In this document: in pieces, positions 1-20,737 of the stretch
How the letters are laid out: each line of letters starts with the position of its first letter
Position numbering within the stretch: position 1 is the stretch's first letter
Origin: Asparagopsis taxiformis
Lineage: Eukaryota > Rhodophyta > Florideophyceae > Bonnemaisoniales > Bonnemaisoniaceae
Direction of reading: 5' to 3'
Length of the DNA: 64,000 nucleotides
Assembly: GCA_030407315.1 (NCBI GenBank)
Contig: JALQPE010001778.1
Span: forward strand, 1 to 64,000
Program-made: the position numbers and the translations under genes
Notes under the pieces: generated by a model
Database searches by the model: none
The model's input: only the letters and a program-made list of their open reading frames with translations
Told to the model about the DNA's origin: nothing

Positions 1-1056
1 CGCGTGCGGCTTCGTTCCCCTCTTCGGCCGCATCTCCTATTCGGCGACGCGGCAGGTTCTTGTTGTGGATTTCGGATGATAGACAACGCTGGAAATACAT
101 AATACCTCGAACGTTTCCGGTGGAGCAAAGAACGAAGGCGCTTGGTTCCCCGCGCTGCGGCGCCTGTAGTGGCGAAGGAAGCATGTTACATCCAATAAGA
201 AGGTCTGCGGCACGATCCCAGAAAGGATGCAGTGCTCAACCCATTGCCCGATACGCTCATCCTGTCTTGAAAACTCGGCAATGGGTAATGCCAGACGAAC
301 AATCTGCTTGGCTCGCTCAACGTTCATCTCTGCCATGACGATTTCGGCAACATCCGCCTCGACTCCAGCATTCTTTCGAACGACCGCTGAAGGACATGCT
401 GAGTCGACCTGCAGCGCCACAAATTGTTCTTCCGTGCCCTGCGCAAACCCAAGCGCCAAGGTCCGCGTATGTGAAACCTCCCGGCTTGTCCGTCAAGTCT
501 GCGAAACTTGAGGGGGCGAATAAATCCAGCAAGAGGCGGAGGAAGTCTTTGCCAGCGAGAGTAGTTTCGCGGGCGGGCGCGACCTACGTTTCGACGTGTA
601 ACCATGTCACTAGAATCCTCAAGGGCTAGCGGGTTCGCGCAGAATTGGCACGGTTGCGTCGTCAACGATCGGATTGCTGTTGCGCCTGCGCTTATTCGTC
701 ATAATGGAATGAGTGGAAAATTCGGTACAGGATGGCGAACCGCTCGGCGAGACAGTCAAATTTGACGACGTATCTCGTGACGTTGCACTCTTTCGTGAGG
801 AACATGGTTGATATCGAACGGAACAGAGTATACGGGTACACAGCACTGGAAAGGTCTTGAAACCCGTAACCGGTGTAGGTAATAAGTTGTGACGGATACG
901 TGGTAGAGAAAAAATTTTAAAAAGATTGTGATTCCCTGCCTTTGAGTGTTGTACTGCAAGGCCGCCAGTCACAAGGTTGGTTGACACAGTGTGCCTCACG
1001 CTTACCAGGTGAGCGACATCCGGACGGCCACTGGACGTGGGATGTCCGACTCAGAT
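1..1056. other. No supportable gene; fragmentary ORFs
   Basis: I see no recognisable gene here. Several short ORFs overlap on both strands. The longest, on the minus strand at 37-459 (140 codons), has no motif I recognise and no partner exon. Because transposon-derived repeats begin immediately to the right, this is most likely decayed mobile DNA or an intergenic stretch. Confidence 0.4.
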
Positions 1057-3087: not shown

Positions 3088-5280
3088 ATGCCGCCGCGTA
3101 TTGCGAAGAAAGCTCCAAAGCCTCCGGGCCTCCAGAAAACCCGGTCAGCAGCTGCTGTATCGAGTGCCCGACAATCCCGTGCGAAGAAGCGGTCTGGGCC
3201 TACCGGCAGCATTGAACCGCGGTCCGGTAGTCGCAAGACGGACCGGCGCAGAACTGGGGATCCGCAGCGAGAAAGTGAGGAAGGAGGAACGGCGCGGAGA
3301 GAGATGGGGCTTGACCGAGGCAAGCGTGCTCGCAGGGACAGTGAACATCATGATGATGACATGATAGTGGCTCAAAACATGTTGGAATTGCGGCAGAGTG
3401 CTATGGCAAAGGTAGTTCCTCCCGGGTTGGCAGATGCGGAGGTGCTGCAGACGGAGTCCCAGCCGGGGGTTCCCGAGACACTGGAGGCTGTGACCCCCAC
3501 TGCGCCAACTATGCCGAGTACATCAGCCCCAGCAGGTAATGCAGTCAGGGACCCGAGGATAGCGGCAAGGGATGTTGTTTCTGAGCAACGTTCACAGGAT
3601 GCCAACTATCATCGGCGGTCAGGTGGTACTGAGGGGAGAGAGCAGCCGGAGTGCGGGCCTCGTCACAACAGACTGTCATTGGTGCCAAATATGCGCGTAA
3701 CGCCCCCGCGACGTCAGGCTATTGGCGATGGAGGACATCATATTCCCGATAGCGTGGGAGATGGGGGGACGGTGAGGGCAGAGAGGTTGCATCCGCCGGA
3801 ATCCATCGATTTAATGGCGAGTCGCATCAATGCGCAGAAGAAGAAGATCGCGGAGCTGGAAAAAAAAGTGTTTAGCCAGGACATAGCAAACAAGGCGCTC
3901 ACCACGGAGATTGTTGCGTTGGAGGCTAAGGTGAAGACTCTGCAGGCGGAAAATGCCAGCCTTACTGCAATTGCGAGAACAGGTAGAATCAGTGATCACG
4001 GTGGCGGTAAGTCGAAAATACAGAAAGCCATTCCTGTGAAATACCTTGGAGTTCTTAGGGCGGTTGAGGAAAACCTGACAAAGTGGTGCAAGAACGAGAC
4101 TATGGAGCTGGACCCTATAGCGGAACAAACGCAGAGACGTTGGACTGGACGTACCATCGAGGTAGAGCCGGTAGAAGGGGCACTTTGGAGCGAAAACGGT
4201 GTAGGATATATTGCTACCCCTCCGGGCTATATCATCAAGAATCTGCAGTGGTATACACCTTCGTACAGGGACGAGAGTGATCTGCTGAATGACTTGGTGC
4301 GACACGTACTGCGTCAAAGTCCGTGGTGTGATGTGTTTTCCGATGAGGAGCAGCGTGTGTGCTGTCAAGAGGCTGTGGCGGGGAGCAAGGAATTGAAAGT
4401 GAAGGTGACGCAGAAACTGTCCGACGTGATGAGTGCACGGAAGCGTAATGCGAGGGACAGATTGTTCGGTTCGCTGGGGTACACGAAATTAATGTCTAGA
4501 TGCACGATGCTGACGACGCGAGCTGAGATGGACGAGCGAGAGGAACAAAAGCGCGAAGCGTCTGAGAAGCTTTTGAAACGGGAAAGTAACGGTGATTTGG
4601 ATATGGGGAGGTGGCGAACGGCACCGTTCTCAGAGCTGCGATACAGCAAAGGCTTGGTTCCTGACAGCTTCGAAATGGAAGTGAATGGTGATGCATGGTT
4701 TAACAACCGAGTAGCTGTGAATGTGCTGGACATCTTCAGGGGTTATTCGATACGACCAGAACAAGTAATGGACATAGAGACGAGCATACTAACGCTGGCG
4801 CGCCTGGATGCTTGGCTAGTGACTACTGTGGAGTGTTTGGATGAACCGAAGGGGAAAGGAGGTGCACGGCAGAAGGAGTTTACAAGGCGGTACAGTCAAT
4901 ATGTGGGGGTAGCTTTTCAGCAATTAGTTGGTATGGTGGTGTACTGCATGTCTTGTCTCCAAGGCTCGCAAGCAAGGGAAGAAACGGACGTTGTCGAGAG
5001 CGAACAGCGGACTAGTGCACAGTCACGGCATGTGTTTGCAAGCCGTACTGTGACGAGAGAGGCTGTTGAAGTGTGGCAAAGCGGAGAGGGGTCTGGAATT
5101 GTTCATGTCGTTGATGATGTAAACCGCTGCTCATCACTTGTTCTAGTGTCCGAGGATTGGATTCAATCGCATATTACGTCAAACCTCGGTGCTGTAATGG
5201 ATTGTGTGATTGCGCAAGGACTAATTGGCGCAGAACTTTTCGTCGTTGACCCATATGCTGGACACCTGATGCAAACCTGA
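3088..5280 (+). CDS. Coiled-coil protein, probable transposon accessory ORF
   Basis: A 730-codon intronless ORF I do not recognise by family. The first 90 residues are very basic and probably disordered (Lys/Arg/Pro/Ser-rich), followed by a low-complexity region. About residues 250-300 form a clear coiled coil with a heptad pattern around INAQKKKIAELEKK. The C-terminal half looks globular and ends about 170 bp from the end of the convergent transposase gene at 5450-8488. A coiled-coil second protein next to a CACTA-superfamily transposase is the usual two-gene layout of those elements, where the partner binds DNA or assembles the complex, so that is my inference. A host gene beside a transposon is the alternative. 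The start is the first ATG of the open frame. Confidence 0.6.
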   Translation: MPPRIAKKAPKPPGLQKTRSAAAVSSARQSRAKKRSGPTGSIEPRSGSRKTDRRRTGDPQRESEEGGTARREMGLDRGKRARRDSEHHDDDMIVAQNMLELRQSAMAKVVPPGLADAEVLQTESQPGVPETLEAVTPTAPTMPSTSAPAGNAVRDPRIAARDVVSEQRSQDANYHRRSGGTEGREQPECGPRHNRLSLVPNMRVTPPRRQAIGDGGHHIPDSVGDGGTVRAERLHPPESIDLMASRINAQKKKIAELEKKVFSQDIANKALTTEIVALEAKVKTLQAENASLTAIARTGRISDHGGGKSKIQKAIPVKYLGVLRAVEENLTKWCKNETMELDPIAEQTQRRWTGRTIEVEPVEGALWSENGVGYIATPPGYIIKNLQWYTPSYRDESDLLNDLVRHVLRQSPWCDVFSDEEQRVCCQEAVAGSKELKVKVTQKLSDVMSARKRNARDRLFGSLGYTKLMSRCTMLTTRAEMDEREEQKREASEKLLKRESNGDLDMGRWRTAPFSELRYSKGLVPDSFEMEVNGDAWFNNRVAVNVLDIFRGYSIRPEQVMDIETSILTLARLDAWLVTTVECLDEPKGKGGARQKEFTRRYSQYVGVAFQQLVGMVVYCMSCLQGSQAREETDVVESEQRTSAQSRHVFASRTVTREAVEVWQSGEGSGIVHVVDDVNRCSSLVLVSEDWIQSHITSNLGAVMDCVIAQGLIGAELFVVDPYAGHLMQT

Positions 5281-5449
5281 ATGTCGAAATCAATGCCCCA
5301 CAGTATGGGGGCATGGAGCGGCGCCATGCAGCCACTGCTGATAACGGTTTTGGCGTAATGGAGGATGGTTGAAATTAGTGCAGTAAATGTGACGTTGACT
5401 AGAAGGTTTATCATGTAGTACATTATCAATAGAGTGCTGCGATTTAGAT

Positions 5450-8400
5450 TTATTCTTCTTCATTATCATCTGTGAATTGGTAATCAGTGTTGGTGTAGAA
5501 GCGGTTGAGATAGAAACGGTGGTCCGACCAGTGCATTTGTTTCGTAAATGGCTTGACTGGAAAGTTACTTCGTACGATGTGCACGGTGCCAGATATAGTA
5601 GATGCAGGAATGAGGTCAAACCAAGGACCACCTGCACTGTGGGATGCAGTGTCATTGCTGTCAACGGATCCGTTGTCCGGGTCCCATGTGGACCACTTTA
5701 AACAAATGCACCCAAGTGATTTTTCCACAGCGGTTTTTGGGGCAAAGCAGGTCATATACTGAACGAAAGCGAGTTCTACAGGTTGAAACAGGTTTGGAGA
5801 CTGCAGGCGTACCAGTGCCAGGACGCGCCCTACCCATATGGTTCTGTAGTCATCGGCAGTTCCGGAGATGACGACAAAGGAGTACTGCGATCTCTTTGCG
5901 GGGCCGAACGATGAAGTTGCAAAGACGCGCTGCTGCTTGTGCCTCGACACGTTTGTGGGGCGAAGCATGCCACTGTGCGGGTCAAAGTCGTCGGCATCTG
6001 GGACGTACCCTCCCATGACGTAGGCGGACTTTACCACGGTGACGGAAATGTCCATGTCATGTATTGGAGGGCCTTCTGCCGTGGCGCGCAGTCTAGCGAG
6101 GGTGAGGAACGCTTGTGCAGCTGTGTCACCGAGTTGCTGGAATAGCGTTATGGTGCCAGACGGGAACGAGGAGTTGTGCAGCGGCAAAAGAGTGGCAGGA
6201 TCGGGCTGTCCGTCGATATCTGCAACGAGGAGGGTTGCATCGGGCAGCAGGGAGGCAAAGTCGTGCAGTGCAACGGTGAATCCGTCGCGAACGAGTACTG
6301 CACCGTCTGTGGGCGATATCATGCGTGCGTTTCCCAATGTGTTCGATGGGGTATGACCAGTTGGAGTGGCCAAGGAGAATTCCATGTGGCGAATAGTCTC
6401 TTCCATGGCTGTGGAGCGCCTTCGAGAGGTTTTCCTATAACTCTGTTTGAACAGAAGATGCGAGTGTTCGTAGGGGCCTGCATCAATGTGTTCCAGGGCG
6501 CCATATCTCTGCAAGTCACCGGGAAGATGGTCTAGAAGATGGAACTTGAAAGTTTTGAGACCTGTGGTGTGGAATGGGCCGAGGGTGGAGAGCATTGATT
6601 GTTTGAAATAGGAAATGGAGTTCTGGAGGCTTTCTAGTTCGGCGGCAGTCCAGTGCTTGATGCGACCGCGTTTCATGACCCATGCGACGAGGTCAGAGTA
6701 TTGCGTGCAGATGGAAGTGAGGGGGGCTGTATCTACTTCGTCACAGCATGTGTCAATGAATGCTGCGATGAAAGGGAACACCATGTCGACATGGTGATAG
6801 TCTTTGGCTGCGAGCATGCCGCGTATGCCGTCCTCCGTGAAGAGGCCGTTCAAATTGGTGCCCTTCTCACCCTTGGAGAAGTCGACATGAAGACCGGTGA
6901 TGTAGTAGTCGCGTTCGATAGCGGACAGAATGCTGTTTGAGCCGGCGAGGATGGATTTTTTCACCTTCTTGAAGGTGCGAGGTGTCCCGGAATGGGAGGC
7001 AGTGGTGGTGAGGTCTGGGGAGCTGAGGCGGTGGACAATGCACTGTTTGATGAGCTTTGAGATGCCGAGGTGGAGATTGTGCAGAGGCTCGAAGGAGAAA
7101 ATGTTGTAGGGGTCTAGGGGACTGTTGGTGGGTAAAAGAGCGGTCGATTCGAGGACAGAGTGTTGTTCGAGGAGGGAGAGAGCTTCGAGCGGAGCAGTTG
7201 TATGCTCCTGAGCGCTCTCTTGGCGTGCAGAGCGTGTATCATCGAGGGAGCGGGGCTGGTGTGGCGCGCTGGATTCAAGTTGAGTGGCGGGGATGTAGCA
7301 GCGGTGGCAGGGATGTGTGGTGGTAGTGCTGTTGCGAGTGCATGAGAGCTCTTTGGCCTCTGGAAAGTCGCAGCAATAATTGGCTAGGATGGGAAAGCAT
7401 TGGCGGGCAGTTGCAGTGGAGTCTGTGCAGGGGAACCCGGAAGAGAACGCGGTGGATAGGGACGAAAACACTTTTTCGAGTGCTTTATGAAGAATATCAA
7501 TTTTGCGAGCGCGACTAGCAGAACTAGAGGTTGTCGGCATTTCATCACCGAACAAGGCGTTGGACGAAGGGTTAACAATGTACGGAAGATACCCGACGAT
7601 GGTGAGGCCGGTACGGATGCAGTGGCGACGGAGGGGGGCGGAGAAGTTGAGCAGTGTGACGTGTATGGGGTATGCGACGATTGCGGAGCTCTTGAGGCTT
7701 GTGCTGCTCTTGTCGGAGTACACTTGGAGGAGGCCGGCAAAGGAGGAAGCGGTGGGATCATTTTCCTCTGCCCATACGACCTGTGGATCTTCCGAGAGCT
7801 GCACGCGCTGTCTAGTAACCTGGTGCAGCGTTTTCGCGAATTCTGTGTGTAGGGGATGAGAAAATATTGCGGTGCCGTCTGGGGCGGTCTGTGGGGAGGG
7901 GTGGAAGAGAGTATTTTGGTCGTTAGCCAGTGCTAACTGCCTGCGGAGCATGTCGACTGGGTCGCGGAGGTACAGCTGTGCCGAGTACTTACCAGTTTTG
8001 TCTGGAATGATGTGGCTCTTGTAACCTTCGGTGCGGAAATGTGTTTCGACCATGGAAGCGGTAACGTGGCGACATTCTTCTACGGTGCGAACGGCGCTGT
8101 TGAACTTTTCTAGGGAGAATGCGGGGTCTTGTAGGATGGTGATGACTTCGCTCACGCGGCCAGCGCCGGCCTTGTACTCGAGGGTTGTGAGACTGGCGGC
8201 GAGGGATTGCACGAGGAGGTCTGCGCGGGAGGGGGTTGAGGTTGGTGGCAGTGAAGCGTCACAGGGTGAGTCGCTGGAGGAAGCACGACCAGATTCTGGG
8301 TCTGGGGAGCTGGGTTGCGGGGAATCATGGTCGCCGTTTCGAGCAGGCTCATGGGTGACGGCAGGGACACGAGCGTTGTTGAAATGTTGGGGAGAGGGGT

Positions 8401-8488
8401 TGAAACGGTAGCGACACGTTCGCTCATGCAGCGCGAGCGCATAAGCATCTACGCAGTAGTAGAAGCACCCTTCATACTTGCATTCCAT
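5450..8488 (-). CDS. Plavaka/CACTA-like transposase with N-terminal zinc finger
   Basis: A 1012-residue ORF, intact and intronless. Residues 3-25 fit a C-x4-C-x12-H-x3-C zinc finger, as often found at the N-terminus of Plavaka/KDZ-type transposases. Around residues 257-302 is the family's hallmark block: YSDK followed by AYPIHVTLLNF and then TIVGYLP, where the Asp of YSDK is the expected first catalytic acidic residue. A CHRC knuckle lies near residue 395. Further on, KFHLLDHLPGDLQRYGA is followed by a Glu-x2-His and a KQSYRKTSRR segment, matching the conserved C-terminal part of these transposases. The product should cut and paste the element using DDE chemistry. No terminal inverted repeats were found by eye, so element borders stay undefined. 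The frame has no stops, so the copy may be recent or active. Confidence 0.78.
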   Translation of the reverse strand: MECKYEGCFYYCVDAYALALHERTCRYRFNPSPQHFNNARVPAVTHEPARNGDHDSPQPSSPDPESGRASSSDSPCDASLPPTSTPSRADLLVQSLAASLTTLEYKAGAGRVSEVITILQDPAFSLEKFNSAVRTVEECRHVTASMVETHFRTEGYKSHIIPDKTGKYSAQLYLRDPVDMLRRQLALANDQNTLFHPSPQTAPDGTAIFSHPLHTEFAKTLHQVTRQRVQLSEDPQVVWAEENDPTASSFAGLLQVYSDKSSTSLKSSAIVAYPIHVTLLNFSAPLRRHCIRTGLTIVGYLPYIVNPSSNALFGDEMPTTSSSASRARKIDILHKALEKVFSSLSTAFSSGFPCTDSTATARQCFPILANYCCDFPEAKELSCTRNSTTTTHPCHRCYIPATQLESSAPHQPRSLDDTRSARQESAQEHTTAPLEALSLLEQHSVLESTALLPTNSPLDPYNIFSFEPLHNLHLGISKLIKQCIVHRLSSPDLTTTASHSGTPRTFKKVKKSILAGSNSILSAIERDYYITGLHVDFSKGEKGTNLNGLFTEDGIRGMLAAKDYHHVDMVFPFIAAFIDTCCDEVDTAPLTSICTQYSDLVAWVMKRGRIKHWTAAELESLQNSISYFKQSMLSTLGPFHTTGLKTFKFHLLDHLPGDLQRYGALEHIDAGPYEHSHLLFKQSYRKTSRRRSTAMEETIRHMEFSLATPTGHTPSNTLGNARMISPTDGAVLVRDGFTVALHDFASLLPDATLLVADIDGQPDPATLLPLHNSSFPSGTITLFQQLGDTAAQAFLTLARLRATAEGPPIHDMDISVTVVKSAYVMGGYVPDADDFDPHSGMLRPTNVSRHKQQRVFATSSFGPAKRSQYSFVVISGTADDYRTIWVGRVLALVRLQSPNLFQPVELAFVQYMTCFAPKTAVEKSLGCICLKWSTWDPDNGSVDSNDTASHSAGGPWFDLIPASTISGTVHIVRSNFPVKPFTKQMHWSDHRFYLNRFYTNTDYQFTDDNEEE

Positions 8489-10330: not shown

Positions 10331-10553
10331 CATGTTCGTGTTTGATGTCTTGATGATTTAATGGGCTGGGGTGGTGTCGAGGAAAGCGGGGATGGTATTG
10401 GGAAGGAGCGTATTTTTTGTAATCTAGGTCGTGAGGGTTCTTGCAGTATGTGCGGATGGTGGTGCATGGCGTTCGGATGGTAGGGAGAACGCGATAGTGA
10501 GGGAGATGGGTGATCGACGATATGCTGACAGGTATTTTGTATTCTGGCTGGAT

Positions 10554-11328
10554 ACGTATTTCCTATTCTAACCGGGTATTTATTTCCTATTCTAACCGGG
10601 TATTTATTTCCTATTCTGACCAGATATGTATTCCCTATTCTAGAGAGACGTATTGTATACGAGCAGTTTCCTAAATGAGAGAATAAAATACGGTCCGATA
10701 TGGGCCCTGAATTTACCATCCGCTGTAATTTCTTCCCTCCCGGTTTTCGCTGATATATTGTATACTGGATGTCGGGTCCTAGTATTCCGCCATATGTACT
10801 AGAGAAAGTGGATGTCGGGTCCTAGTATTCCGCCATATGTACTAGAGAAAGTGGATGTCGGGTCCTAGTATTCCGCCATATGTACTAGAGAAAGTGGATG
10901 TCGGGTCCTAGTATTCCGCCATATGTACTAGAGAAAGTGGATGTCGGGTCCTAGTATTCCGCCATATGTACTAGAGAAAGTGGATGTCGGGTCCTAGTAT
11001 TCCGCCATATGTACTAGAGAAAGTGGATGTCGGGTCCTAGTATTCCGCCATATGTACTAGAGAAAGTGGATGTCGGGTCCTAGTATTCCGCCAAACGTAC
11101 TAGAGAAAGTGGATGTCGGGTCCTAGTATTCCGCCATATGTACTAGAGAAAGTGGATGTCGGGCCCTAGTATTCCGCCATATGTACTAGAGAAAGTGGAC
11201 GTCCGCATCCAAAAAATTTTTATTTTTTTTTGGACGCGGACGTTCATTTGTTCTAGTAAATCTCGGGGCCGACTAGGACCCGTACTAGAGAGACTGGACG
11301 TCCGCGTCCACTTCCGAAAACACAGACG
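10554..11328 (+). repeat. Direct repeat block 1 (775 bp)
   Basis: First copy of a block that recurs immediately at 11329-11802. It starts ACGTATTTCCTATTC, carries about three units of a 24-bp repeat (TTTCCTATTCTAACCGGGTA type), then ten 43-bp units, then a hairpin-forming tail with GGACGTCCGC and GCGGACGT words around an A/T tract. Outside the 43-bp array the two copies look identical by eye, so the duplication is recent. It could be tandem LTR-like ends of an element, or transposon subterminal repeats. Confidence 0.75.
10765..11194 (+). repeat. 43-bp tandem repeat, 10 units
   Basis: Ten contiguous units start at 10765 and then every 43 bp, the last at 11152. Each begins GTGGATGTCGGGTCCTAGTA and ends ACTAGAGAAA, and contains CTAGTA paired with TACTAG around a 12-base centre, so every unit can form a small hairpin. 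Variation is minimal: one unit has CCAAACGTACTAG in place of CCATATGTACTAG, and the last reads GGGCCC. There are no unique spacers, so it is not CRISPR-like. Confidence 0.9.
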
Positions 11329-11802
11329 ACGTATTTCCTATTCTAACCGGGTATTTATTTCCTATTCTAACCGGGTATTTATTTCCTATTCTGACCAGAT
11401 ATGTATTCCCTATTCTAGAGAGACGTATTGTATACGAGCAGTTTCCTAAATGAGAGAATAAAATACGGTCCGATATGGGCCCTGAATTTACCATCCGCTG
11501 TAATTTCTTCCCTCCCGGTTTTCGCTGATATATTGTATACTGGATGTCGGGTCCTAGTATTCCGCCATATGTACTAGAGAAAGTGGATGTCGGGTCCTAG
11601 TATTCCGCCATATGTACTAGAGAAAGTGGATGTCGGGCCCTAGTATTCCGCCATATGTACTAGAGAAAGTGGACGTCCGCATCCAAAAAATTTTTATTTT
11701 TTTTTGGACGCGGACGTTCATTTGTTCTAGTAAATCTCGGGGCCGACTAGGACCCGTACTAGAGAGACTGGACGTCCGCGTCCACTTCCGAAAACACAGA
11801 CG
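11329..11802 (+). repeat. Direct repeat block 2 (474 bp)
   Basis: Second copy of 10554-11328. Its length difference of 301 bp equals exactly seven 43-bp units (ten units against three). Its right end overlaps the 3' end of the gag-like minus-strand ORF, whose last residues (SVFSEVDADVQSL) are encoded inside the repeat. A matching segment also ends the first block at 11328. This places the block at the 3' side of the minus-strand element, where a terminal repeat would be expected. Confidence 0.75.
11540..11668 (+). repeat. 43-bp tandem repeat, 3 units
   Basis: Three units of the same 43-bp repeat start at 11540, 11583 and 11626, inside the second block. The last unit carries the same GGGCCC variant as the last unit of the ten-unit array, so the arrays differ by internal expansion or contraction rather than by independent origin. 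Confidence 0.9.
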
Positions 11803-13794
11803 GGGCAGTCAGGTCCAACGTCTGGGCTCTGAAATCTTCGGCTGCGCGAGCCACGGACGTAATGAGGGAACGAATAACCCAGCCGTCCACACGAGGCGGA
11901 GCGGCCATCGACGTACCGAGAAGCCGACGGGCATCCTCATCGGAGACGCGGTCGTCCAGGCTCACGAACCGTGGCGCGCGCTCGGCCGGCGTGGCCACAT
12001 CCGGACGACCGACGCGGGCAACGTTGCCCCCTCCCGTAGCCTCGCGTGGCACGATCTCTCGAGGATCCGGCGCACGCGGCGCTTCGTTTTGATGGCCACG
12101 ACGGCCAGAACGCGTCCCTCGGGGGCGCTCGTTGCCCCCGAGGCCACCGAAATAACCGGTACGATTGCCACGACGGCGTTCGGAACGGGAAGCGACCCGC
12201 GGCACGTAAGCCCCATCGCTACGCACGGAGACGAACTCCTGGTTATCGCCGCTTGCGTAATCGGGACGTATAACCCGATACTCCGGCCCCAACGCAAGGG
12301 CGCCGCGAGCCTCAGCCAACGTGCTGGTAACGGAGACGAACGTATCGGAACCGTCCACCGGGATTGCACGAAGCATCTCGTAGTCGGCCAGGAAGTCCAA
12401 CGTGGACTCCGGCAGCAAGCACGCGCGCCCGAACACACGACGTTCCACGAACAGCGAGCATGCGAGCATCGCTGCGTGTTCGATATCCACGGCCATGAGG
12501 AAACGTTCCTTCACGGGGGCAGGCGCGTCCTTCACGGCATCGGTAAAATAATGCACCACGCGTGGTAGCAATGTGGACGATCCACGAGGATACGGAAACT
12601 CCTCTACTACTTCCGGCAACGGCGGGAAGTAGAGCTCGCTCGGGACGACCCACGGAGCCGACGCGTGCGACACGCGGTAGTCGTCCGCGTTCACGTGACG
12701 GAGCGCGAAATGGTCGTCGTCGACACTACGCTCTTGGAGATGACGCTCAACGAAAGAGCAGTCTTCCATTCGGCACGTTGCCTTTCGGAAAGTGTCCGCG
12801 GACATACGAAGACGGATGCCACCGAGATGAACGGCGGTTCCTCGGGCGTCCCCTTCCACAGGAACGCGTCCATACGATCGACGTAGATCGCGTCGTTGAC
12901 GTCACGCAACCACGAGCGGTCGCAACGTATCGACGCCGGGATCTGGTAACGTTCCGATCCCGGTGGCCCGTTGGCGAAACGACGCCCGGCTGCCCGCCCC
13001 CACGTATCCTCGGCAGAACGCATGTAGTCGACAACCGCGCGGGCGTCCAGACGATCTTTTGCCAACGTGGCGAGATCGTCATCCGTAATGCCCACGCGGG
13101 GCAACGCAGCCCACGCGTGGGTCAGGACGCCTACGTTGAGCGCCACACCGCCACGTGAGGCGGTGCCGACTGTCCCAACGGGGTCACCACCCTCCGGCGA
13201 GGGATCCTGACGAGGAGAACGAGGCGAACCGTCACGACGAGGCACGCCCGTGCGGGCCGCCGCCACAGCACGACGCGAACGAGCGGCCGCTGCCATCGCG
13301 GCTACGCCCCTCGATGGGGCCGCGACATCCGGGATGATGGGTGACGAATTCCCCGAGTCGGACGCCGTTGCGTCATCATCACGTGGGGTATCGGCCCTAG
13401 CAGCCTCGGCAGGCGTCACGGAAGCCACCAGGCGAGACGGAGCCATCGGGCGAGACGAAGAGGCGACGGCCTGCGAAGCAACGGCTTGACCCGCCCTAAC
13501 AGATGGGGCGGGCGCGACGGACGCTTCCGTCGCTGGCGGCGCACCGGCCCCGACGAGGGAGGGAGCGCCCTGCGAAGGGTTCCTCGCTCCACCTCCAGCA
13601 GAGCCGGCGGGCCGCGGAGTGTGGGTATCGGTGCTACGCGTAGTGACCATCGTGGTCAGTTCGTACGCAACGAAGACGAACAGTGCAACGAGCACGAGAA
13701 CGAGAGCCACGCGGGCGAAACGGAACAAGAGAACGAAAGGAACGGAGGTAGTAGTACCCAGCGGGGAAAAGAGGTAAGGGAGAACGAAAGGCAA
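11759..13794 (-). pseudogene. Gag-like retroelement gene split by a frame change
   Basis: Two minus-strand frames overlap: 13794-12691 (367 codons) and 12859-11759 (366 codons). Passing from the first to the second needs a -1 change somewhere in 12691-12859; by reading sense I place it near 12755. I saw no canonical X-XXY-YYZ slippery heptamer, so a simple indel is likely, though programmed shifting is not excluded. The open frame begins with a hydrophobic stretch, but the likely true start is at 13650, giving MVTTRS, an N-terminus common in Ty3/gypsy Gag proteins. An Ala/Pro/Arg-rich disordered part follows, then a globular part, then an Arg/Gly-rich tail. There are no zinc knuckles. The region is strikingly GC-rich. 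It lies antisense to the polyprotein at 14911-18918 and may be its capsid partner or a separate nested element. Confidence 0.5.
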
Positions 13795-14507: not shown

Positions 14508-14910
14508 TATTGGCATCGTGCCGGGAGGGAAAGGGGACAATTCAACGAACGAGCAACGGCTCTAGTCTACGACTGACTTCTACGTTTTACGTTTACGTTT
14601 TGCCTAGCGAGGCTTCGTCTCCGTCGAGCTGCGTACTCCCTACCCATCGCCGCACGTAAGGCTGATTGCGTGTAGTGCCTCCGGGCTTGGTTGAGAGCGC
14701 CTCCGGTGACGTGCCACCTCGTTTACCGAACGTAATCCTCACGTGGATTGTTGCGTCGTGACGCTCGTGTCTACTCGCTAACCTATCTCTACCTTTCTAC
14801 CTAACATACAGTCAAACACCAGCGGGTAGACTGTTCGTTTCGTTTCGTTAAGGACAGCGTGTCCGTAGCTCGTACCAGCTATCTAGAACTAACGTTGTTC
14901 CACAAGGCTG

Positions 14911-17900
14911 ATGGTTCGTCCAGATGCTAGGGTGAGCAACGTAGAGCACAAAGTTGATGCTCTCGCGAATCAGATGGAGAGCTTGACTCTCCTGATCAAG
15001 AAGTCCACCTCGCATTCTGCAGTCGCTTCCTCTCCGAACGATATGCAACGTACGTGCTCCTACTGCAAGAAACCGGGTCACTCGGCCAATCGGTGTGAGG
15101 CAAATCCACATAAGGAGACCCGCTGCTCCCGTTGCAATAAGATGGGCCACTCGGAATCCTCATGCTGGGCACGCCCTCAAAAGGTCACCTTTACAGACCA
15201 GAAGGCGAGTGCTAGCAACAGCAGGGATGTTCGTGGAGATCACACGGGCGGCTCTAACCAAGTCACGTCAGTGACGGAAGTTCCTGCCGAAGGCGATGCC
15301 GTCATGACAACCAAGAGGGCTTCAGATGGGCAAGCTCTTCCGAAGAACCCCCGTACCGACGTAGTACCACCTCTCCCCATCATTCCTAATATGCTGGTTC
15401 CTGCTAAGCCTAGGCGTTCCAAGGCCAAGAAGGCCAATAGGACGAAGAAGACCAAGAAGGAAGGTCTTCAACAGGTTTCGAAATATGACGTCACTAGGGA
15501 ACTGGCGAATGCCCCTTCCGGTATGTCTTTCGGCCAACCCCTCCGTGGGGATGCCGACGAAGCTCGAAAGGAGTTGAACCGTATGCTGAAGGGAGGAAGA
15601 GTGACCCGGCCGATTGCGATCGCCGGTAATGCTCTTGAAGAACATCCACGCGTTCTCGAGCTCGTAGCTCTTAAGGTTTACGGGACGAAAGCCTGGGGTC
15701 TACTCGACACCGGTGCGGTTCCGAATGTGATCTCAGTCGAGCTTGTGAAAGCTCTTTCTCTCACTCACGACTTCAAGCCCAAGGGTATAACAGTGGCTAA
15801 TGGAGTACATTGCCCGACCCTGGGATCGGTTAAAAATGTGCCTATCTCTTTTGATGGAGAGACGGTACATATGGATTTCCTATCAGTCGAAGGTTCTCCT
15901 TTCGATATTGTGATTGGAATCCCCACAATGGTTCTGCTGAGGATCAAGCTGGACTTCGAGAGGCAGGTTGTCCGTATGACCATTAACAAACGTACTCTCG
16001 AAGTCCCCCTTGAACTGGACATTGGCAAACAACACATGATTGCCAGTGGGAAGGATAGCGCAGATTTCACCTCGGAATCTGACCTTGTTCCGTTCTCCTC
16101 TTCTTCATCGGACGAAGAAACGAACCAGGACGAATTGGTTCTGGCCATACTGAACGACCCAACCTCGGTTGGCCCTCAGCCTGACTATACAGTCGGACTG
16201 GAGGTCGAAGAGGAACGGAGGTTCACTCTGCACTCAAAGCTTGCGCACCTCGAGCAAGACGTGGCAGAATCCATATCCAGTACTCTGCGAGACCTGGGTG
16301 TGGTTGCTTGGACTTTAGACGACCTACGTCCCGCTGATGTGCCCTTCAAACACTATTTCGAGTTGAATGACCCGACACCCATTCACAACTCATCTAGAAG
16401 ACTGGCTCCTCGTCACAATGAATTGGTTCGTGAGGAACTCGACAAGATGTTGGAGGCCAGAATAATCACACCAGCGACCTCTGCCTGGTCCTTTCCGATA
16501 GTTATTGTGTCCAAGAAAGACGGTAAGCCTCGATTCTGCGTCGATTACCGATCGCTAAATCAGCGTATGAAGCCTGATCGTTGACCTATTCCTAGAATCC
16601 AAGAGATCTTCGACGACCTAGAGGGAAGCGTCGTCTTCTCCACGTTGGATCTATTCTCAGGCTATTGGCAGGTCAGGATGGCTAACGAATGTAAGGAGGT
16701 CACTACCTTCGTCTGCCGATTCGGCACCTTCAAGTTCGAGGTGATGCCCTTCGGCCTCATGAACGCTCCGTTGACGTTCCAAAGAATGATGGATGTCATC
16801 CTGGCCGGCCTCAAGTTTGTCCGAGTATATTTGGATGACGTAGTGGTATTCTCCAAGTCAATGGAAGAACACGTGGACCACCTAAGACAAGTCTTTTACG
16901 TCCTGTCGCAGCACGGCTTGAAGCTGAAAATTCAAAAATGCTTCTTCGCGAAGCCTAAGGTAGGGCTTCTCGGCCATCTTGTGGACAAAAATGGTGTTTC
17001 TGTCGACCCCTCTAAGGTCAGAGCCATCATGGCTGTCCAAACACCAAAAACGAGTACCGAGCTCCGCAGCTTTCTCGGACTTGCCGGGTATTACCGGCGC
17101 TTCATCCGGAATTTTGCAGCAACCTCATCTGCATTGCATGCGGGAACCTCCAGGACTCGTAAGTTCATCTGGACGGAGGAAATGGAAGAGGCATTTGGAA
17201 ACTTGAAGGAGGCCCTTACTTCTCCCCCTGTCCTAGCCTTTCCCGACTTCGAACATCCTTTCGTCGTTGAGACAGATGCTTCATCAGTTGCCCTGGGAGC
17301 CATTCTCGCTCAGAAGAAAGCAGATGGTAAGGTGCATCCTATCGAATATGCCAGCCGCACCCTCAACACTAGCGAGCGGAATTATAGTGCTTGTGAAAGG
17401 GAGGCCCTAGCAGTCGTCTTCGCCCTCAAGAAGTTTAGGGTGTATCTCCTCTCGTCCATCTCCTTCACTCTGATCACGGATCACAAGGCCCTCCGCCACG
17501 CCTTCCAGAAAAAGGATGTGCATGGGAGACTGGCCAGGTGGTTGGATTTCCTTGCGGAGTACGAGTTCAAGGTTGAGTACCGCGCAGGAACCGCGAACCA
17601 AGCGGCGGACTACCTTTCCCGAATGTGTGTCACGCCTCCCCCTTCCTCAGAAGAGGGGAACCTCATCAACGTCACCACGGAAGGAGGAGGGCACGATGAT
17701 TCTCCCCGGGACCTGGAGCCTTTCCTGGTGGAAGTGGAACGTCACCTCCGAGGGTTACCGATCCAGTCCACAGATCAGAAGGCCCGGGTTGCCATCCGCC
17801 GAGCCATGAAAAGTTACCTCGTCTGGGACGGGAGGCTTTTCCGCCGAACGAGCAAAGGGCCTCGAGTTGTTGCCGACAGATCCCTTCGCACAGGTATACT

Positions 17901-18918
17901 CCGTGCCTTTCACAACGATATCGGTCATTGGGATGCCCACACCACTAAGAGAATGGTGTTGGACAGGTTCTGGTGGCCCAATATTCACAAGGAGGTAATT
18001 GCCTATGTGAGATCCTGCAAAGGATGCCAGTTGGCTACCCCGCTCCCTCATTACTGCTCATCCCTTTACTTCCCCCTCACAAACATCTTTTCTGTCTTCT
18101 CCATCGACTTCGCTGGGCCGTTCCCCGCTTCCTCGGGTGGAAACAGATTCATCCTAGTTTGCGTGGAACACCTGACTGGATGGCCACTCGCCAGGGCCAC
18201 TGCTAACGCCACTGCGGACGTCGTCAAAGCATTCGTGCGAGAGGAGATAATGCACTCATTTGGTCCTCCTCAGACCATTATCAGTGATAACGCCATATGT
18301 TTCACTGCAACCTCTATCTCCCAGTTCATGGAGGAATCTGGCATCGAGTGGAGAACCTTTCTCGCGTACGCCCCCATGTCCAACGGGAGGGCGGAGCGAA
18401 TGGTAGGCACGGTAAAGCGTGGAGTGAAGAAGATGGTTCTCGATGAAGGCATAGACTGGGACCAGGCCCTCACTCATGTTCTTTACGGCTACCAACGTCG
18501 CCCACTGGCAGGCAGAGCATCACCCTTCGAGCTACTCTACGGAGTCACGCCGCGGATGGGCCGGGACAAAGTTTCCCCGTGCCTCTCCCATTCCGTCGAA
18601 GACCGCCGAATCGAGTTACTCGCCGTTAGCGCCGGGAGGGTGAAACGTATCGTTGATCAGAGAGAGATTCGCAAGGGACCCCTCCGGAGTAAACAGACCC
18701 AGAAGTTCCAGGTCGGAGACTTGGTTCTGGTCGCCCACGGAAAGGCACTCAACCCAGCAGTGAAGTGGCCCGCGTTCAAGTCTGTCTACTACGGCCCGTG
18801 CCGCGTGGTGCGGGAATCGCACCCCCGCTACTCTCTGGTATCGTCTCATGGACGTACTTCGCGTAAGGATATCCATGCCCGGCGTTTGGTGAAATACCAG
18901 TCCCCGACGACCCAGTAG
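14911..18918 (+). mobile_element. pol: Ty3/gypsy retrotransposon polyprotein, one in-frame stop
   Basis: One reading frame runs from the ATG at 14911 to 18918, broken only by TGA at 16582-16584. Domain order: a short coiled segment; two CCHC zinc knuckles (C49-C52-H57-C62 and C72-C75-H80-C85); a basic linker; an aspartic protease with LLDTGA (Asp266); reverse transcriptase with YLDD at about 16828; RNase H (VETDASSVALGAILAQ); an integrase with an HHCC zinc site and DDE residues (FSIDF, IISDN, GRAERM); and a C-terminal GPF/GPY-like module without a chromodomain. The order protease-RT-RNaseH-integrase defines the Ty3/gypsy group. The TGA falls in KPDR-stop-PIPRI, where Trp or Tyr is usual, so it looks like one TGG-to-TGA change. 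A capsid domain is absent upstream of the zinc knuckles, which is unusual and suggests that Gag is truncated or supplied elsewhere. Confidence 0.9.
16582..16584 (+). other. In-frame TGA in the reverse transcriptase
   Basis: This stop lies in the same frame as the 557 codons before it and the more than 775 codons after it, between GATCGT and CCTATTCCTAGA. No other stop or frameshift is visible in about 4 kb. A single recent nonsense mutation is simplest; stop readthrough separating Gag-PR from RT would be the alternative, but the position inside the RT fold argues against it. Confidence 0.85.
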
Positions 18919-20128
18919 TCGTCAAGCCATAAGGCACCACCCACGCCTTCAGGCCCCTTTTCTGAAGTGCGCGGTCTCTCTTCCTTTATGCTTCCTACTC
19001 TACCCCTAAACTTTCTTTGTTTCGTTCTTTGTTGTCTATGCTCTTTCTTTCTGATCACCCTCTCTCTCACTCCCCCAACCAACCCCACTGCTGGGCGAAG
19101 GTGACATTCTTGTCTCCCTGGTATGGTGCTTGAAGCCTCTGGCATCCGATGAGCCCCTTGTGGCGACTCTGCAGGGCTTGGTCGAGGTCCTTAAAGCTCC
19201 GCACTCTTGGGTGGTAGCCCTCCCTAGCAAGCCACTCCTTGTCCCGCTTGGCCTCCTCGAGGAAGAACTTCTTGGCAGCGGCTCTGCCATGTACGATAGC
19301 AATAGCATTCGCACCGGCGGTACGAATGCAAGAGTCATGGAAGTCTTGAATCGGTACGACCTTGGCGCGGACGAAGAAATTCTCTGCTTCGGGCGACGGG
19401 GGTCTAGACATTATCTCGTTGACCTGGAGCGGGATACTAGGATGTTTCGAGCACCATTGGCCGTACTCGAGCACGAGGCCCGCTCGCGAAGGAACTTCGT
19501 CGACGACTGTAACGCCGGCTTGAGTGCGATCCCCTTTATCAGAGGCCGGGAAAACCCCTCTTCGGAAGGTCATAGTGTAGAGGTCTATGATGCTTACCGC
19601 ATCTACCTTCTCCCCGGGTCGACGCTCATACCGAGCATAGTAACGACCCTCTTCTTCGTCACCAGCGCCGGTCGAGAACCAGATGCTTTTGATGATCCAA
19701 GGTTCGTCGGCATCGCACTCGCCATACACGGTCTGGTCACCTAATGACTCGGTGCGACCGAGCCGGAAACACGCCTCTGCCGTGAGAACCGAACACTCCT
19801 CCGCTTCAGCGAAGCTCCCTATTTGTAATCCGAACAGCAAGTGAAGCTGAACACTGGAGACACTCTTCGAGTACCGCTGGCCGCCGACCCGACCGCAGTC
19901 GATCGTCTACGTTACCGGACGTCCATCCTGAGCTTTATTCTTAGTGATGCGACGAACGTCCGTGCGACCCGAGCAATCCCAAAGAGTTCGCTCGTGTCGG
20001 GAATTCCGTGAGTCGTCAAAGTCGATCTCATTCGGTATCGTAGGGACAATAGCACCCTCTCCGTGCTCCACGTGCTTTTTGTCGCGGCGGGTGTGCGTTA
20101 CCGGGGTGCGATCCTCGCGGCGCGACGA

Positions 20129-20212
20129 TCGGCGGCGGGCTGCTGCAGCTGCGAGATCTTTCCGCGGCGCCCGTCCCCCAGTGGATCGCTTCGCAGTCTG
20201 GTTTGTCCGAGC
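20129..20212 (-). other. Histone H3 N-terminal tail look-alike
   Basis: Codons 1-28 after the Met at 20215. Compared with the near-universal H3 tail, identical positions are 1-3, 5-7, 10-13, 15-18, 20-21 and 24-26. The lysines at H3 positions 4, 9, 14, 23 and 27 are replaced by Asn, Arg, Arg, Ala and Arg, while Lys18 is kept and position 8 becomes Lys. The comparison uses the established H3 tail sequence; the match is seen directly. Confidence 0.85.
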
Positions 20213-20586
20213 CATCCAAGGCGTTCGGCCACTAGGTCCCCGGCGGACCGGGGGATCCACGAAAGCAGCGTCTCGACTCGAGGACGGCTGGACGTCAGCT
20301 GGACGGGGACGGACGTACACAGGGCAGATGGGGGCGATGGAGTCGGAAGGGGTGTCGGTCAGCGGTGCCAGGTCGGATTTCGGCATGATCAGTGAAGGGT
20401 CAGCTTTTATGTGCTGGAACCCGCCAATTTGGCCTCCACCGGGCGTCGGCCTGAGGGGAGGGCCGTGTCGTATGACATTTGCGGAATAAAATTTGGGAGT
20501 CCGGATTTTACAAAATTTTGTAATTTCTAGCCCTAACTCAGCCGGTGCCGGCGGCAAACACCTTTGAGTGTCGCGCCGCCACCGGT

Positions 20587-20595
20587 CTATATAAC
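20587..20595. promoter_or_regulatory. TATA-like box near the H3-mimic gene
   Basis: CTATATAAC on the plus strand reads GTTATATAG on the minus strand. It lies inside the first codons of the longest open frame of the H3-mimic gene, which is why a start further downstream (20386 or 20215) is preferred for that gene. Confidence 0.35.
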
Positions 20596-20737
20596 GTCCG
20601 ATCATAATGTATCGGGAACAGAAAAGATAGACAGACTACAACCAGTAAACTACTTTTCCCTTTTTTTAATTTGTCGCGCCTCCGCGTCTATCACGCGTGC
20701 AAAAAGACACGCCAACACATTCCGTAGGTTCTACGTA

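Follow-up and report, generated by a model that had tools for sequence, protein, structure and literature searches.

The window, by which we mean the whole 64-kb stretch of DNA analysed here, carries the remains of a Ty3-type LTR retrotransposon together with an accessory gene of unusual beginning, and their features are collected in Table 1. In the gag-pol frames, Pfam recognizes a zinc finger or knuckle, an aspartic protease, RT, RNase H and integrase, in the Ty3/gypsy order of gag, protease and RT-RNaseH-integrase, and no chromodomain was found in the pol part (E<=1). The accessory gene lies antisense to this gag-pol (14911-18918 on the plus strand), which bears out the retroelement context proposed in the first-pass annotation. 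The outer end of the 3' LTR (TG...) is at position 20717, and the accessory gene reads inward from that side.

This copy is badly damaged. Everything 5' of 14905 is missing, no second LTR was found inside the 64-kb window, and the accessory frame is interrupted by an in-frame stop at 19909-19907 and, relative to a complete copy on another contig (C1764), by a deletion of ~0.6 kb at about 19066/19076, leaving it without the His/Asp part and the basic tail described below. The frame at 14911..16584 is 41% identical to the gag and 45% identical to the pol of a second family, B. In the surrounding DNA, a Plavaka-type transposase occupies a 1012-codon frame at 5450-8488 on the minus strand (Pfam PF18759, E 1.6e-24), and 43-bp direct repeats form an array with a 775-bp duplication at 10527-11802. 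Overlapping long frames of 366 and 367 codons with GTG/TTG starts lie at 11759-13794 on the minus strand, directly upstream of the truncation point of the element; the 366-codon frame has no Pfam match. Rfam, at its gathering thresholds, gave no match in the window.

Table 1. Features of the window element and, in the last row, the domains of the related family B pol
Feature	Position	Strand	Evidence or remark
5'-truncated family A element, whole extent	14905..20717	.	no second LTR found in the window
gag C-terminal part (zinc knuckles), aspartic protease, RT start, family A	14911..16584	+	ORF and Pfam
RT, RNase H, integrase	16645..18918	+	Pfam; 57.5% to family B pol
Accessory ORF after the stop	19067..19906	-	runs to deletion near 19066/19076; QDFHDSC segment kept
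Accessory ORF, first uninterrupted part	19907..20215	-	closed by in-frame stop; stop absent at that place in L002-L005
H3-tail-like N-terminus of accessory protein, MARTNQTAKRSTGGRAPRKDLAAAAARRR	20129..20215	-	20/27 identity to H3; pN/pS 0.24
Leader, 3' LTR to accessory start codon	20216..20465	-	70 'codons' before start neutral, pN/pS 0.98
3' LTR of window element	20466..20717	.	96.9% to LTR of complete C1764 copy
Family B pol, Pfam order	RVT_1 252-408, RNaseH 496-601, H2C2 703-758, rve 778-869		

The accessory frame opens with a Met codon at 20215 on the minus strand, and the codons from there to 20129 read MARTNQTAKRSTGGRAPRKDLAAAAARRR, identical to histone H3 at 20 of 27 positions with the Met included. 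The first-pass annotation had left the Met out and reported 19 of 26, and our re-count gave the same figure. Across the six frames of the 64 kb, the runner-up among 27-residue matches to H3 reaches 9 identities, and the maxima in 20 codon-shuffled windows were 8-10, so that chance resemblance and low complexity were rejected as explanations. The absence of a histone fold behind this segment, also claimed at first, agrees with our searches: neither the window ORF (E<=1) nor the proteins of family B and of the distant homologue P0002 (E<=10) match any Pfam family. Similarity to H3 past residue 27 is not significant in 3000 shuffles per family, the H3 score being reached by 115/3000 for family B, 1804/3000 for family A and 2038/3000 for P0002. 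Capture from H3 beyond the tail is thus not supported, as the RYRPG match in family B is the one reached by 115 of the 3000 shuffles.

The accessory gene is not confined to the window. A search of the genome (141 Mb, 3,156 contigs; E<=10) with the 159-residue product of the window copy returned 66 matches, certain copies being matched twice. They split into family A, which resembles the window copy and is found on 14 contigs, and family B, which is ~40% identical and encodes a protein of 486 residues with the N-terminus MAKTKQTAKKSTGGTAPRQELAARAAR. Of the 13 B loci extracted first (L017, L019-L030), nine have a frame of 489-490 codons and the remaining four a shortened one. When 12 of these 13 were compared, L022/L026 and L023/L027 proved to have common flanks, and L011/L012 and L061/L064, although on different contigs, are 99.8-99.9% identical over 1.1-2.1 kb. 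Such pairs represent assembly redundancy or segmental duplication and inflate the copy counts; because the assembly is partly redundant, the 66 matches do not equal independent insertions. Older copies show decay: the start Met is replaced by Thr in L006 and by Ile in L060 and L063, and in L010 a stop interrupts the tail. Two further B-type loci, L048 (C613) and L050 (C1966), carry a tail, MAKTKQTARKSTGG, that is still closer to H3 (13/14), and both have a frameshift at about codon 33.

Complete elements could be delimited for both families. The family B element in C1607 (39636-46663, 7,028 bp) is bounded by 232-bp LTRs that are 100% identical, with TG...CA ends and a 5-bp target duplication, AATTT; the B element in C2732 has the target duplication AGAAC. 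The complete family A element in C1764 has LTRs 99.6% identical over 254 columns and the target duplication GTATG. In C436, no second LTR was found in the stretch read. In complete B elements, the accessory ORF is intact (486 codons), is placed between pol and the 3' LTR and runs antisense to gag-pol, with 166 bases between its end and that of pol; at L031, for example, it runs from 5202 to 6662 on the plus strand and gag-pol is on the minus strand. Family B gag-pol is a single frame of 1,556 codons that is open in nine loci, two of which (C416 and C2639) have common flanks, and its domains follow the same Ty3/gypsy order as in the window. The pols of families A and B are 57.5% identical, and neither has a chromodomain at the integrase C-terminus (Pfam, E<=1). 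Compared with the start edge of the C1607 element, four of seven B regions begin within 2 bases and two of seven 136 bases further in, and a copy in C1980, 90% identical to C1607, begins 88 bases further in. Six B regions match C1607 at 99.8-99.9% identity across >5 kb, and family B has therefore been recently active.

Whether the H3-like segment really begins the protein can be judged from the sequence on either side of the Met. In family B, a TGA stands four codons before the accessory ATG in all eight copies inspected, the start context has G at -3 and +4, and two upstream ATGs lie in the leader that separates the start from the outer end of the LTR. Family A has a weaker context, with T or C at -3 in the copies shown. 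Across 13 copies of family A, pN/pS falls from 0.98 over the 70 codons before the Met to 0.24 in the tail (codons 1-27), and stands at 0.47 in codons 28-120 and 0.28 in codons 121-300. An upstream start in family A (MPKSDLAPL...) was rejected, since the 70 codons before the Met are neutral, and L009 and L014 moreover have a stop there. Frame-changing indels occur in 7 of 12 A copies within the 330 nt upstream of the Met, setting aside one +1 difference that separates 11 of the 12 from L004 and is probably a deletion in L004; within the 900 nt downstream the count is likewise 7 of 12, as expected for old copies.

Tree-based parsimony counts give the same picture for the tail itself. In family A (13 copies), there are 24 synonymous and 21 non-synonymous changes (p=7e-4 against neutrality), and in family B (20 of 30 loci) 32 of each (p=1e-4); the count upstream of the family A Met carries no signal of selection (p=0.34, 0.82), and a Fisher test of the A tail against 35 upstream codons is borderline (p=0.053). 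In family B, dN/dS is 0.27 for codons 1-31 and 0.23 overall, measured on 12 of 30 loci in pairs that are not independent. Within each family, then, the tail is constrained about as much as the rest of the protein, not more. The accessory protein truly begins with the H3-like part, as selection and the upstream stop show, and this part is under purifying selection in both families. The doubt raised in the first-pass annotation, that other copies might lack the segment, carry it in another frame, or show neither a start nor constraint, is not borne out in families A and B, where the segment is in frame, though certain related elements may be without the tail. The identities, pN/pS and tree counts together place an H3-like sequence under selection in a parasite protein that is not a histone.

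Relatives outside this genome were sought among 5.8 billion protein sequences, and the matches listed include two: P0001 (486 aa, 94% identical to B) and P0002 (442 aa). Since P0001 may derive from the same species or a close one, P0002 alone is clearly an independent relative. It too starts with an H3-like tail, MGRTKQTAKKSTGGK, within the N-terminus MGRTKQTAKKSTGGKRIPRSYLAEKSARF, and is otherwise distant (31% identical elsewhere). Against P0001, P0002 keeps 18 of 27 tail residues and 127 of 406 elsewhere, and family A keeps 19 of 27 and 177 of 445, so between families the tail is better preserved than the remainder, which has diverged to 31-40% identity. Searches of PDB point to the same protein: every one of the best 60 of 131 matches to P0001 is an H3 or H3-type chain (best E 2.8e-7), and the same is true of the best 60 of 135 with a family profile (best E 8e-8). 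Phages and viral_contigs yielded no relatives of P0001, and P0002 minus its tail returned only P0002 itself.

At the codon level, little of this agreement is shared. The window tail and that of B have 20 residues but 7 codons in common, and the window tail and host H3 likewise have 20 residues in common, with 8 codons shared with the gene on C171 and 6 with that on C578. The residues have thus outlasted the synonymous sites. Capture from a host H3 gene, which the codon comparison had been meant to address, cannot be shown, as the comparison meets diverged codons. Replacement of H3 R8 by Lys is usual in family A, family B (23/30) and P0002, and being common to all three lineages it points to one origin followed by constraint.

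Among 30 B loci, 11 of which are >=99% identical to one another's reference, T3, K4, S10, G13, R17, L20 and A24 are kept in 30 and Q5, T6, A7 and K9 in 29; R2 is changed to K in 27 and R8 to K in 23, K14 to T in 30 and K23 to R in 29, and K18 has become Q in 18 and R in 12. The residue following the Met is A, S or G in all 30. The first-pass annotation had described nearly all modifiable lysines as replaced and Lys18 as kept. This holds for family A, with K4 -> N, K9 -> R, K14 -> R, K23 -> A and K18 retained, but fails for B, with K4 kept in 30/30 and K9 in 29/30, and for P0002, which keeps K4, K9 and K14. Within B, K14, K18 and K23 are replaced. The idea of an unmodifiable decoy accordingly fits the family A branch only; because K4 and K9 persist in B and P0002, imitation of the H3 N-terminus, and not simply a tail that cannot be modified, forms the core of the pattern.

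The remainder of the protein carries a Cys-His-Asp set that is conserved. P0001, P0002, a family A copy (L003) and a distant paralogue, L070, all share Cys294, His402, Asp407 and Asp417 without variation, and among the B loci covering these sites C294 is found in 25/25, H402 in 24/25 and D417 in 23/25; one A copy, L004, is an exception, having Phe instead of the Cys. Papain-like hydrolases have their Cys, His and Asp in this order, and the domain is perhaps one of them; its dN/dS, 0.17, is the lowest among the five regions compared. Pfam and NCBIfam have no match that names this C-terminal domain, and PHROGs has one, at E 0.065. AlphaFold models of the accessory protein reach mean pLDDT values of 40 and 44, and Foldseek found no significant match to these low-confidence models (best E 0.35 and 0.23), XopD-type peptidases appearing in the structure search at E 0.23-0.54, which we do not count in favour of a peptidase. 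In P0001, P0002, L003 and L070 the protein ends in a strongly basic stretch that looks like a nuclear signal.

The paralogue L070 (G000:C2363:4700-5980) was found through P0002. It has the Cys-His-Asp set SGFCAVAS...DHCFVID...LIIDS and aligns over the C-terminal half of the accessory protein (pairwise E 1e-8), and no H3 tail was found at its start in the 1.3 kb read. Similar matches lie in C565, C1032, C2111, C2376 and C2917 (E 0.0056 each), with weaker ones besides. Seven sister pol loci (C806, C1771, C2018, C953, C704, C106 and C175), 51-54% identical to the B integrase region, have no accessory match among the matches listed, and the same is true of the B-type pol loci C1562, C2436 and C1967. 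Given L070 and the sister pol loci, without tail or accessory match, the tail looks like an addition in one lineage and not a universal feature.

The host genome has 13 phycobilisome-linker matches, which fits a red alga, and its H3 genes, which are ordinary ones, are found twice on C171 (96% to the canonical H3 query) and in two pieces on C578. Domains of the type that read H3 are present, with 10 matches to PHD and 3 to SWIRM. There are also at least 150 Chromo matches, many within frames of 1,100-1,600 codons, and these long frames, judged from their length only, are chromovirus-like.

What such a protein may do can be approached from its parts. On balance we think it probable, if not strongly so, that these elements encode, in antisense, a protein with a free-ended H3 tail and a protease-like domain that would act in the nucleus as a decoy, a pseudo-nucleosome or an H3-tail protease. 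The more specific reading that we prefer, and hold tentatively at a little under even chances, is that of a nuclear accessory protein whose H3-like N-terminus would occupy the host's H3-tail readers or enzymes in trans, as an anti-silencing decoy. As a general rule, a small residue after the Met leads to Met removal. With Ala, Gly or Ser in that place, the cell would cleave off the Met and expose the free Ala/Gly-Arg/Lys-Thr end on which H3-tail readers dock. The basic C-terminus would carry the protein to the nucleus, where the tail would occupy readers of the H3 N-terminus or the enzymes that modify it, and the silencing of the element would be weakened; the papain-like domain might process a partner or the accessory protein itself. 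Since family A is without K4 and K9, the partner must tolerate their loss, or family A works differently.

The alternative that survives best, though we consider it unlikely, gives the leading role to the hydrolase. The papain-like domain would cut H3 tails or need its own tail cut, and the N-terminal copy of H3 would be an autoinhibitory pseudosubstrate or a self-cleaved propeptide. It draws on the presence of both parts in one polypeptide, on the invariance of the Cys-His-Asp set in P0001, P0002, L003 and L070 with its conservation in B, and on the low dN/dS of that domain; the low-pLDDT models and Foldseek, however, do not confirm a peptidase fold, and L070 combines the domain with a start that shows no tail over the stretch read. 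Clipping of H3 is best documented in the 21-27 region, and in the B loci the conservation of residues 3-13 is no lower than that of 21-27, which tells against this reading.

A tethering role seems to us somewhat more doubtful still: the protein would connect the integrase or the particle of the element with complexes of the host that bind H3, thereby steering integration or nuclear retention. The lack of a chromodomain in the A and B pols (E<=1), in a genome with so many Chromo matches elsewhere, speaks for such a role, which would be the mirror image of the chromodomain, a domain that binds H3; on the other hand, this is a separate antisense protein without a known link to integrase.

We give rather little credence, less again than to a tether, to a basic leader for nuclear entry or nucleic-acid binding whose H3 likeness is a relic of a captured H3 5' exon, with no imitation selected now. 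The tail is indeed basic, and the recurrence of H3's RYRPG at about the right place in B hints at capture, but that match is insignificant in the shuffles, the tail is under purifying selection, and it is the basic positions 2 and 8 that vary. The uncharged residues T3, Q5, T6, A7, S10 and G13 persist in 29-30 of the 30 B loci, in P0002 and in most A copies, and their conservation argues against a mere basic leader. Finally, chance resemblance or decayed non-gene sequence, which the broken state of the window copy might suggest, is scarcely credible against 20/27 identities where 20 shuffles reach 10 at most, the long frame in nine of the first 13 B loci and the same start in P0002.

If the decoy reading is right, a transposon counters chromatin control by posing as a nucleosome tail, in a genome with at least 150 chromodomain matches. 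The broader reading, of a free-ended H3 tail acting in the nucleus as decoy, pseudo-nucleosome or protease, would give the enigmatic antisense accessory ORFs of LTR-retrotransposons a role in chromatin. The H3 N-terminus is a recognizable label on the accessory protein, by which its partner can be fished out directly, and the natural variants, with K4 and K9 kept in B and P0002 and lost in A and with R8 usually K, form a mutational series for H3 readers and enzymes.

Several known systems can be set beside this one. Histone H3 itself is matched over its first 27 residues (20/27), and its fold is absent from the accessory protein. Chromoviruses are Ty3 elements that engage the H3 tail system by reading H3 with a chromodomain; the algal element, by contrast, presents an H3 tail, and Pfam finds no chromodomain in it at E<=1. 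VANC of the Arabidopsis VANDAL elements is a transposon accessory protein for which action in trans against silencing by the host has been proposed, and the algal protein resembles it as an accessory protein of a transposable element for which anti-silencing in trans is proposed, although to our knowledge VANC has no H3 tail. We know of no earlier histone-tail mimic from a transposable element, and no description of an H3 tail encoded by one was found in the literature searched. Known themes, histone mimicry and antisense accessory ORFs, are here joined in a way undescribed in that literature.

Each theme has its precedent. Viruses are known to mimic histones, and influenza A NS1 is likewise a product of a parasitic genome that imitates the H3 N-terminus: in the passages cited, its ARSK motif corresponds to ARTK of H3, host enzymes can modify it, and it binds CHD1 and MORC3; the motif is without the free N-terminus normally required (PMC10612106). 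There, the imitation is a 4-residue internal motif near the C-terminus with no free N-terminal amine (PMC10612106), whereas here it extends over ~26 residues at the protein's own N-terminus, in an algal retrotransposon and on a protein with a protease-like domain. Additional antisense genes located between pol and the 3' LTR are also known, their function being described as not established (PMC7264820). The sources cited report such an ORF, aORF-3R, in plant Ty3/gypsy elements such as Grande, RIRE2 and Retand, conserved in most copies, with nuclear localisation reported for Grande GENE23 and with Retand mostly encoding TRP28; the word 'histone' occurs 0 times in either main text (PMC7264820, PMC11963269). 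The algal elements share with these a conserved ORF that is placed between pol and the 3' LTR and runs antisense to gag-pol, a likeness of position and orientation.
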